Of a stretch of 64,000 nt of DNA, positions 58,836-60,213 are shown piece by piece. Numbering within the stretch: the first letter of the stretch is position 1; every line of letters begins with the position of its first letter. Source of the stretch: Tildeniella nuda ZEHNDER 1965/U140 (lineage in GTDB: Bacteria > Cyanobacteriota > Cyanobacteriia > Leptolyngbyales > Leptolyngbyaceae); NCBI GenBank assembly GCA_019358895.1, contig JAHHIG010000013.1, positions 62,001 through 126,000 of the forward strand, read 5' to 3'. Below the pieces are notes generated by a model, which was not told the DNA's origin, made no database searches, and saw only the letters and a program-made list of their open reading frames with translations. The translations under genes and the position numbers were made by a program.

Positions 58836-58844
58836 AGTGGGAAC

Positions 58845-58872
58845 GTAGGGACGTTGCACACAATGTCCCTAC
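58845..58872. repeat. Stem-loop repeat after the GH57 gene
   Basis: GTAGGGACGTTG (58845-58856) pairs with CAATGTCCCTAC (58861-58872), one G-U pair, loop CACA. This GTAGGGAC..GTCCCTAC sequence is a common dispersed palindrome in cyanobacteria and could also end the GH57 transcript. Confidence 0.65.
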
Positions 58873-58899
58873 TGCTAGAAACCTCAGCCGATCGGGTAC

Positions 58900-58928
58900 T
58901 TGACTCACTCTGATGCCTCTGTTAATTT
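58900..58928 (+). promoter_or_regulatory. Promoter upstream of the aromatic leader
   Basis: TTGACT (58900-58905), 17 bases, TAATTT (58923-58928). It would start a leader of about 370 bases ahead of the DAHP synthase gene, covering both leader peptides. Confidence 0.6.
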
Positions 58929-58980
58929 CAGGTAAGCATTGATTCACATTCTCGACGAAAATTCTTAACGAAACAGGCAA

Positions 58981-59037
58981 ATGAGCAGCACCGCCTTCTA
59001 CTTTTACTTTTGGCAACCATCGGTTCACCTGGAGTGA
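58981..59037 (+). CDS. Aromatic leader peptide 1
   Basis: An 18-codon frame: ATG at 58981, TGA at 59035-59037. Its middle, AFYFYFW, has six consecutive aromatic codons (Phe, Tyr, Phe, Tyr, Phe, Trp at 58996-59013). An AGG lies just before the start, a weak ribosome site. The final codons (59021-59033) form one strand of the antiterminator, and the stop follows at once. Leader peptides of this kind report charged-tRNA supply to a downstream attenuator. It is too short to be recognised by usual gene finders. Confidence 0.75.
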   Translation: MSSTAFYFYFWQPSVHLE

Positions 59038-59094
59038 CAACCGTTCTTGCTGAACGTGTCCAGGCGAACCGCAGAGTCAACTCTGCGGTTTTTT
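59021..59094 (+). promoter_or_regulatory. Attenuator 1: antiterminator and terminator
   Basis: Antiterminator: CGGTTCACCTGGA (59021-59033) pairs with TCCAGGCGAACCG (59059-59071), 12 of 13 positions. Terminator: AACCGCAGAG (59067-59076) pairs perfectly with CTCTGCGGTT (59081-59090), followed by TTTT. The two structures share 59067-59071 and exclude each other. Confidence 0.8.
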
Positions 59095-59135
59095 CGTTTT
59101 AAGAATTTGTCGGCAGGAAGAGATAGGAAAGAGTG

Positions 59136-59216
59136 ATGACAGCGTTTATGAGTTGGTTTTACAGCGTTTACTTTTGGTTCGGCTTTTACTTTTGGTTCGG
59201 AACATGTTCCGGGTAA
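59136..59216 (+). CDS. Aromatic leader peptide 2
   Basis: A 26-codon frame: ATG at 59136, TAA at 59214-59216; AGGA lies 7 bases ahead. Thirteen codons are aromatic (7 Phe, 3 Tyr, 3 Trp), clustered as SWFYSVYFWFGFYFWF. An internal ATG at 59148 is an alternative start. The final codons GTTCCGGG (59206-59213) form the antiterminator strand and the stop follows directly, the same geometry as leader 1. This is a strong signature of ribosome-mediated attenuation by Phe, Tyr and Trp tRNA charging. Confidence 0.85.
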   Translation: MTAFMSWFYSVYFWFGFYFWFGTCSG

Positions 59217-59271
59217 AGTCTGTTGCGCCTTCGTTCGTACAGCCCGGAACCCAAAAGGTTTCGGGCTTTTT
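59198..59271 (+). promoter_or_regulatory. Attenuator 2: alternative hairpins
   Basis: Hairpin 1:2: palindrome CGGAACATGTTCCG (59198-59211). Antiterminator 2:3: GTTCCGGG (59206-59213) with CCCGGAAC (59243-59250), perfect. Terminator 3:4: AGCCCGGAACC (59241-59251) with GGTTTCGGGCT (59257-59267), one G-U pair, then a T-run. Segments 2, 3 and 4 compete exactly as in classical amino-acid attenuators. Confidence 0.85.
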
Positions 59272-59307
59272 GTTTGCAATCACCCAATCACACCAAGGAG
59301 TAATGTC

Positions 59308-60213
59308 ATGTTGGATGCCAAACTAGTCACCAAATCTCATCCTGACCATCGGACTATTGTCCATCTGTCTGAACAGGTGGCGATCGGTGGCAGCAATGTC
59401 ATCGTCATCGGTGGTCCCTGTACAGTAGAAAGCGCCGAACAAATGGAGCAGGTTGCCAGTCAGTTGTCTACGGCTCCCATTCATGCCCTGCGGGGAGGTG
59501 TGTACAAGCCGCGCACTTCCCCGTACTCGTTTCAGGGGATGGGCGTAGAGGGACTGCAAATTCTGGCAGACGTGCGATCGCGCTACAATCTGCCAGTCGT
59601 GACAGAAGTGATGTCGATCGCCCAAATTGCACCCGTCGCCGCCTATGCCGATCTGCTCCAGATTGGTAGCCGCAATATGCAAAACTTCGAGTTGCTCAAG
59701 GCGTTGGGGCAGGCAGGCAAACCCGTGTTGCTGAAGCGGGGACTTTCAGCCACGATCGAAGAATTCGTGATGGCAGCCGAATACATCATGGCGCATGGCA
59801 ACCCCAATGTGGTGCTGTGTGAGCGTGGTATCCGTAGCTTCGACACGTATACTCGCAATGTGTTGGACTTGGGTGCCGTGGTCGCCCTGCGCCAATTGAC
59901 ACACCTACCCGTGATTGTTGATCCTAGCCATGCCGCTGGTAAACGCGAGTTGGTTGCCGATCTTGCCAGAGCAGCCGTCGCCTGCGGAGCCGATGGACTC
60001 ATCATTGAATGCCACCCTGAGCCTGACCAATCTGTATCGGACGCACGTCAGGCTCTTTCATTAGAAGCGATGGTAGATTTGGTGCAGAGTCTGGAGCCGA
60101 TCGCCCAAGCAGTGGGGCGCACCTTGACCAAAGACAGTGTTGCCGACGAACTCGAATTCAACGCCAAAAGCTTGCCTGTTGAGCATCTAAGGTTAGCTGT
60201 AGCCAGTGCTTAG
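59308..60213 (+). CDS. aroF: 3-deoxy-7-phosphoheptulonate (DAHP) synthase, type I-beta
   Basis: A 301-residue DAHP synthase, which joins phosphoenolpyruvate and erythrose 4-phosphate in the first shikimate step, leading to Phe, Tyr and Trp. Active-site sequences are VIGGPCTVESAEQME, LRGGVYKPRTSPYSFQGMG, LLQIGSRNMQNFELL and VIVDPSHAAGKRELVA (metal and substrate ligands). It belongs to the I-beta group; no chorismate mutase or ACT regulatory domain is fused. AAGGAG lies 7 bases before the ATG. The gene is preceded by the tandem aromatic attenuator at 58981-59271, which would supply the regulation that a missing domain cannot. Confidence 0.96.
   Translation: MLDAKLVTKSHPDHRTIVHLSEQVAIGGSNVIVIGGPCTVESAEQMEQVASQLSTAPIHALRGGVYKPRTSPYSFQGMGVEGLQILADVRSRYNLPVVTEVMSIAQIAPVAAYADLLQIGSRNMQNFELLKALGQAGKPVLLKRGLSATIEEFVMAAEYIMAHGNPNVVLCERGIRSFDTYTRNVLDLGAVVALRQLTHLPVIVDPSHAAGKRELVADLARAAVACGADGLIIECHPEPDQSVSDARQALSLEAMVDLVQSLEPIAQAVGRTLTKDSVADELEFNAKSLPVEHLRLAVASA

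Follow-up and report, generated by a model that had tools for sequence, protein, structure and literature searches.

The DAHP synthase gene in the window (the whole stretch of 64,000 nucleotides that was analysed, part of a 6.08 Mb genome assembly) is very probably preceded by two complete trp-type ribosome-mediated transcription attenuators arranged in series. Two short ORFs rich in codons for Phe, Tyr and Trp, the helices that follow each of them, the overlap of these helices, their covariation, and the conservation of the arrangement in related cyanobacteria were all observed directly. From these features we infer that the leaders are translated, that ribosomes stall on them, that transcription terminates between the leaders and the gene, and that the system responds to all three aromatic amino acids. 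The kind of control, ribosome-mediated attenuation, is a classical mechanism; what is new is the double mixed-aromatic form and its occurrence in cyanobacteria. If the mechanism is true, coupled transcription and translation serves amino acid control in these bacteria, and a pair of serial attenuators, each of them complete and both receiving the same input, offers a natural test of why one gate falls short. It would also have a bearing on the engineering of aromatic production in cyanobacteria.

Leader ORFs and candidate switching structures in the window

The following features were identified on the forward (+) strand of the window.

58900–58928, + strand: probable promoter (TTGACT at 58900–58905, 17 bases, TAATTT at 58923–58928); the motif is kept in relatives
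58981–59037, + strand: leader ORF 1, read directly (start ATG 58981; 18 aa, MSSTAFYFYFWQPSVHLE); regulatory codons at 58996–59013
59022–59033, + strand: 5' arm of antiterminator 1, within the final codons of leader 1; 94.6% of cells paired
59059–59070, + strand: 3' arm of antiterminator 1; its final four bases double as the foot of terminator 1
59067–59095, + strand: terminator 1; 10-bp stem (59067–59076/59081–59090) and U tract
59136–59216, + strand: leader ORF 2, read directly (start ATG 59136; 26 aa, MTAFMSWFYSVYFWFGFYFWFGTCSG); 13 of 26 codons aromatic
59206–59214, + strand: 5' arm of antiterminator 2, covering the final codons of leader 2 and reaching one base into its stop codon
59242–59250, + strand: shared arm, at once the 3' arm of antiterminator 2 and the 5' arm of terminator 2, as indicated by covariation
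59241–59271, + strand: terminator 2; 10–11-bp stem (59242–59251/59257–59266) and U tract
59308–60213, + strand: DAHP synthase of type I-beta, 301 aa long and lacking an N-terminal extension (NCBIfam, Pfam, structure-chain alignment)

An earlier note on this DNA had described two aromatic-rich short frames, and direct reading confirmed both, with six consecutive aromatic codons at 58996–59013 in leader 1 and 13 aromatic codons out of 26 at 59136–59216 in leader 2. That note had also placed one antiterminator strand in the final codons of each peptide, with the stop codon following within 0–1 base, which the arm coordinates bear out: the 5' arm ends one base before the stop codon in unit 1 and at the stop codon in unit 2. 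Its proposal that each leader is followed by a terminator and by an antiterminator excluding it held as far as the presence of both structures is concerned. The antiterminator precedes the terminator, however, and the overlap in unit 1 comprises four bases only (59067–59070, the foot of the terminator stem), so that antiterminator 1 disrupts just the lower four pairs of the terminator 1 stem. In unit 2, the overlap takes in the entire 3' arm of the antiterminator, which doubles as the 5' terminator arm.

Folding energies were −16.0 kcal/mol for terminator 1 (z −6.5) and −18.1 kcal/mol for terminator 2 (z −3.6). Across all four helices, z ranged from −3.1 to −6.5, and 0 to 2 of 200 shuffled sequences folded equally well. 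A terminator pattern scan of positions 58840–59320 returned terminators 1 and 2 and no third (0.7 expected in shuffles). Antiterminator 1 contains one A-C mismatch in the window (59027/59065). A short local hairpin spans the stop codon of leader 1 (59025–59037; TTCAC with GTGAA in relatives) and could compete with antiterminator 1.

The motif TTGAC was present in the 200 bases preceding leader 1 in 78 of 79 distinct loci (defined below), versus 19% of shuffled stretches. The second promoter box, taken as the best choice among spacings of 16–19 bases, lay at a spacing of 17 or 18 in all 78. A strict sigma-70 scan of the region reported no promoter at 58900–58928.

According to the proposed mechanism, RNA polymerase would start near 58900 and a ribosome would follow on leader 1. 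With ample charged tRNA-Phe, tRNA-Tyr and tRNA-Trp, the ribosome would run on to the stop codon, and with the antiterminator's 5' arm covered by it, the terminator would form. Were any of the three charged tRNAs short, the ribosome would stall in the aromatic run and leave the arm free, the antiterminator would form first, and the polymerase would pass. Leader 2 would then repeat the test, and a full-length mRNA would require passage through both gates.

Conservation of the leaders in related loci

Among 386 sampled genomes of the phylum, 38 contained a close ortholog of the DAHP synthase gene (at least 67% identity, the next at most 57% among the matches listed). We examined these 38 ortholog loci together with the best 80 of 562 named loci, among which the nearest named relative was Stenomitos frigidus ULC18 (91% identity). 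L051 and L059, for which the available upstream sequence was too short, were dropped, resulting in 116 counted loci that are partly non-independent, some genomes being present in both collections. Both leaders were found in 110 of these 116 loci, 105 by rule and five by eye (L069, L110, L007, L029 and L105). The remaining six comprised one locus with leader 1 only (L039), four with leader 2 only (L038, L067, L086 and L091), and one with neither (L041), where the match starts at residue 73 and hence less true upstream DNA was covered. The rule, which accepted ORFs of 8–70 aa with at least five aromatic residues in eight, returned 236 ORFs on the strand of the gene versus 4 on the opposite strand, and at least two such ORFs were present in 110 loci on the strand of the gene versus none on the opposite strand. 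This mechanical count of 110 differs in membership from the 110 loci judged to have both leaders, as it includes L091 through an unrelated ORF and excludes L105. The earlier note had proposed to compare the same spacer in relatives, where conserved peptides and compensatory changes would support its reading. The aromatic peptides proved to be kept in the 110 loci, and compensatory changes in the paired segments exceeded those in shuffles in the 79 distinct loci, least strongly for antiterminator 2 (see the following section).

The consensus-like sequences were M..NSYFYFW..VHRE for leader 1 and MTYFS.WFYGFYFWPR.SSG for leader 2. The longest aromatic run took 31 distinct forms in leader 1 and 25 in leader 2, with F, Y and W interchanging freely, the pattern to be anticipated were charged tRNA the signal. 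In 76 of the 79 distinct loci, codons for Phe, Tyr and Trp all occur in each leader. With a DAHP synthase gene downstream, this agrees with the previous suggestion that a mixture of aromatics fits the first shared enzyme of the pathway. The stop codon of leader 2 varied (TAA in 43, TGA in 18 and TAG in 18 of the 79 loci), and its distance from the antiterminator arm was constant in most rows.

Some loci deviate from this layout. In L007 and L029, leader 1 has 13 codons instead of 18 and its stop codon no longer abuts the antiterminator arm. In one lineage, made up of L033, L093 and L103 (the last being Calothrix sp. NIES-3974), the leader 2 stop codon beside the antiterminator arm is lost and a frame of 44 codons reads through the terminator; unit 2 of these three loci may work otherwise or may be broken.

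The peptides themselves could in principle be the sensors. TnaC is an arrest peptide that responds to tryptophan, and nascent-peptide sensing of this type, in which the leader stalls the ribosome by its own sequence upon binding free aromatic amino acids, would account for WFYGFYFW being the commonest core of leader 2 (25 of the 61 rows with the pattern), often followed by P-R. We nevertheless consider it very unlikely that the leaders are arrest peptides, given that F, Y and W substitute for one another throughout the 31 and 25 different longest runs and that P-R is replaced by T-R, F-G, L-R or another pair in many loci, including the window. Arrest of this kind would also be expected to regulate a biosynthetic gene in the wrong direction, barring an opposite wiring of the structures.

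Covariation of the four helices

The alignments of the two units (A3 and A4) contained 79 of 109 loci after removal of those at least 88% alike, L105 lying outside the 109. For antiterminator 1 (11 of 12 columns), 94.6% of the cells were paired and 57 were changed on both sides, versus a shuffled mean of 13.4. The corresponding values were 97.2% and 12 versus 1.6 for terminator 1, 91.4% and 20 versus 6.4 for antiterminator 2, and 89.5% and 51 versus 12.8 for terminator 2. For all four helices, none of 500 shuffles, which disregard the kinship of the loci, was as high in paired share and both-side changes. When the partner was slid by 1 to 3 columns, a control that retains kinship and over which the counted structures are favoured by having been taken from the window's own sequence, the paired cells fell from 89–97% to at most 65%.

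Antiterminator 2 had the weakest support of the four helices, as two of its five covariation measures, pairs changed on both sides (2) and further pair types (9), were not above shuffles. The further pair types of terminator 1 were matched by 52 of 500 shuffles and thus also were not clearly above them. In unit 2, a shared base varies together with both of its partners at one position, with U-A-U in 41 and C-G-C in 8 of the 79 loci, and this three-way change fits the requirement of a shared arm that has two alternative partners. Unguided folding of the alignment with RNAalifold drew terminator 1 and the local hairpin across the leader 1 stop codon; antiterminator 1 was not drawn.

These data also bear on whether the leaders could instead yield stable RNAs of small size, or small proteins, that have an independent function and are merely ended by the terminators. 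Both units are compact and have strong terminators at their ends, in agreement with such an explanation, but it leaves unexplained that the antiterminators covary in step with the terminators, and it accounts neither for the aromatic codons nor for the placement of the stop codons or the tie to the DAHP synthase gene. We regard it as highly improbable, more so than arrest peptides. Riboswitches and T-boxes share with attenuators the use of mutually exclusive structures ahead of a biosynthetic gene, but control of the gene by a ligand-binding riboswitch or T-box with incidental ORFs has the slightest chance of all, because the ORFs are kept as ORFs and the sequence outside the switching helices is variable across the aligned loci; moreover, Rfam contained no family reaching the gathering score in four related loci, and its single match in the window region scored far below that threshold and lay on the other strand.

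Predicted effect of ribosome position

The behavior expected of two trp-type attenuators was explored by folding each unit with a ribosome in place. The ribosome was represented by an unpaired stretch reaching from 17 bases before to 12 bases after the first base of the A-site codon, the transcript was cut ahead of the last terminator arm, and a mean pair probability above 0.5 was used as the criterion for a formed antiterminator. Unit 1 was folded for 77 of the 79 loci (excluding L007 and L029) and the truncated unit 2 for 76 of 79 (three rows are without letters at the needed columns). With a ribosome at the stop codon, no locus was predicted to form the antiterminator (0 of 77 in unit 1, 0 of 76 in unit 2); the most favourable aromatic stall allowed it in 77 of 77 and 69 of 76 loci, respectively. 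The model thus reproduced the previously suggested behavior, in which a ribosome at the stop masks the strand and one stalled at aromatic codons frees it. Counted from the last aromatic codon backwards, stalls permitted the antiterminator of unit 1 in 27, 70, 77, 77 and 77 of 77 loci and then in 69 of 69, and that of unit 2 in 49, 53, 56, 64, 65 and 64 of 76 loci. The low counts at the very last aromatic codon suggest that the arm is frequently masked in part by a ribosome located there. For the window itself, the antiterminator probability was 0.68 at the last aromatic codon and 0.90 before it for unit 1, and 0.26 at the last aromatic codon and at least 0.93 before it for unit 2. By a like measure, E. 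coli trpL yielded 0.00 at the stop codon and 0.30 and 0.73 at its two Trp codons.

In the absence of a ribosome, the antiterminator formed in 76 of 77 loci for unit 1 and in 37 of 76 for unit 2. In trp-type attenuators, a protector (1:2) hairpin brings about termination when translation is absent; here, an upstream partner for the arm with a probability above 0.3 was predicted for unit 1 in 0 of 77 loci and for unit 2 in 35 of 76, among which the window does not figure. The folding of unit 1 without a ribosome, with its antiterminator formed, is unlike that of E. coli trp. These predictions suggest that the two gates may differ when translation fails. Because the window's unit 2 is also open without a ribosome (antiterminator 0.93), this difference is predicted for only some members of the clade.

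At equilibrium and full length, terminator 2 was favoured in most loci and in every state, the antiterminator being ahead in 6 to 23 of 79 loci depending on the stall. For unit 1, the antiterminator was ahead in 1 of 77 loci at the last aromatic codon, in 16 of 77 at the last but one, and in 42 of 69 to 58 of 77 at earlier stalls. The terminator of E. coli trpL was favoured at equilibrium in every state, too. Equilibrium folding was therefore discarded as a criterion for the switch, trpL not passing it either, and since equilibrium favours the terminator even in trpL, the switch must be kinetic.

The DAHP synthase

The gene at 59308–60213 scored above the cut-offs of the NCBIfam models NF006421, TIGR01361 and NF009239 and matched Pfam DAHP_synth_1. 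NF009239 names a bifunctional enzyme with chorismate mutase; the protein encoded here is without a chorismate mutase part. Its neighbours are a glycosyl hydrolase family 57 / branching-enzyme gene and a UvrD-like helicase gene, one on either side. The own genome encodes three DAHP synthases: the gene at 59308–60213, an AroFGH-like one (L002) and a second I-beta-like one (L001), which is ~70 residues longer than the 59308–60213 protein ahead of the barrel. L002 (G000:C24:58880-61058) is located near a prephenate-dehydrogenase-like gene on the same strand.

In structure-chain alignments, residue 5 of the 59308–60213 protein aligned to residue 70 of 1rzm (338-residue chain), which is the Thermotoga maritima enzyme and has a ferredoxin-like feedback domain at its N-terminus, and the short chain 1vs1, the Aeropyrum pernix enzyme without such a feedback domain, aligned with the protein over most of its length (enzyme descriptions from PMC6362186). 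A possible N-terminal addition, in a frame starting after terminator 2, amounts to at most 63 codons in the 79 loci and exceeds 20 codons in 4 of them. Judged by its sequence, the enzyme consists of the type I-beta barrel alone and lacks the N-terminal extension that is usual. Because type I-beta enzymes lacking a regulatory domain are generally not inhibited by aromatic amino acids (PMC6362186) and no extension is found here, we infer that control sits in the RNA. RNA control may thus substitute for feedback inhibition of this DAHP synthase, with the double gate standing in for the feedback domain that the isozyme lacks.

Relation to known attenuation systems

The units carry the features of trp-type attenuators: an aromatic leader ORF, an intrinsic terminator before the gene, and a gene in the pathway of the encoded amino acids; a covariation-supported antiterminator that excludes the terminator (by four bases of overlap in unit 1, and with the weakest support for antiterminator 2); and, in the folding model, an arm masked by a ribosome at the stop codon and not by one at the regulatory codons. 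They resemble E. coli trpL and pheL in having a leader peptide rich in the end product, an arm that would be covered at the stop, and an intrinsic terminator before the gene, and trpL showed a matching pattern under the same folding model. In contrast to trpL and pheL, the present system consists of two full units in series and would read three amino acids at once. Unlike in the E. coli trp type, the arm is predicted to have no upstream pairing partner in unit 1 and to have one in part of the loci in unit 2.

An aromatic leader before a DAHP synthase gene is known in Corynebacterium glutamicum, namely aroR (PMC11802643, PMC4046766). As described in PMC4046766, aroR precedes aroF as an aromatic leader peptide, as in the system reported here, but it is one leader with Phe-Tyr-Phe and belongs to an actinobacterium. 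The Salmonella mgtCBR leader RNA likewise contains two short ORFs, one of them with regulatory codons, but its units respond to different signals (ATP and proline) and are unlike intrinsic terminators (PMC3641672), whereas both of the present units have the same three aromatics and intrinsic terminators. Judged by codons, an mgtCBR-type division into two leaders with different signals was not found, as each leader has all three aromatics in 76 of 79 loci. Before aroF of Acholeplasma, which also encodes a DAHP synthase, a Phe-coding uORF beside a terminator has been predicted (uORFC-13-1; PMC8632094); by its description there, it differs in belonging to another phylum and in an additional substructure, and a second unit is unmentioned. 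Attenuators have furthermore been predicted before tyrA-containing operons, with two units in Streptococcus pneumoniae, and the predicted attenuators in the available part of that paper include no cyanobacterial one (PMC1173090). A 2016 paper states that there are no reliable data on attenuation in cyanobacteria (PMC4833913).

The earlier note knew of no description of a double mixed leader for DAHP synthase in cyanobacteria. Consistent with this, we found none in the titles and abstracts of the open-access literature, and the available parts of PMC12125101, PMC1262725, PMC6435475, PMC10875765 and PMC7997468 do not mention a double aromatic element. That statement has to be qualified by the aromatic attenuation known for the Corynebacterium DAHP synthase and by the tandem attenuators of Salmonella mgtCBR.

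Distribution beyond the locus

A covariance model of unit 1 detected a single place in the own genome. Of 388 genomes sampled from the class, 146 matched at E 0.01 and 140 of these 146 at E ≤1.4e-8, counts that include matches by construction, since some of the genomes searched had themselves contributed loci to the model. One match per genome was obtained in 143 genomes, and a second weak one occurred in three. All of the 30 best matches had at least two aromatic ORFs and a downstream DAHP synthase motif. Twenty of these 30 were located in genomes outside the 386-genome ortholog set, and the whole arrangement was present in all 20.

Five loci with both leaders and a related DAHP synthase (L069, L110, L112, L114 and L117) derive from MAGs labelled Melainabacteria or Obscuribacter. 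In the tree, these five loci grouped together (support 88/94) within a weakly supported group of Leptolyngbya-like rows; their origin may lie in transfer, old inheritance or misbinning.

Under a broader hypothesis, feedback control across an entire enzyme clade would reside in RNA and not in protein. An allosteric-domain-free DAHP synthase would be under a serial double RNA gate that reads the three end products simultaneously. The two gates would differ in the absence of translation (unit 1 being open in nearly every locus and unit 2 in roughly half of them), and the arrangement would be common to Nostocales, Leptolyngbya-like lineages and some Melainabacteria-labelled MAGs. We put this forward tentatively and with some doubt, as it is made less likely by the window's own unit 2, which has no closed default state.

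Within the own genome, no leader with five aromatic residues in eight was found in the ~900 bases upstream of the domain match of trpE, pheA, two tyrA-type genes and the two other DAHP synthases; two ORFs upstream of these genes reach four in eight. The unit 2 model returned the true place and five weaker matches in this genome. The strongest of these five (G000:C34, E 1e-4) was an ordinary terminator without an aromatic run, and the other four had E values of 0.07 to 0.8. The unit 1 model also matched weakly in G024 and G465; these two hits were rejected as one ordinary terminator and one partial remnant-like stretch. A strong match of the same model in a genome without a close ortholog (G030; L159, G030:C48:74050-74114) consists of remnants of leader 1 and of the antiterminator, fused to a broken DAHP synthase frame and, as read from the sequence, is a decay of the unit in one genome.
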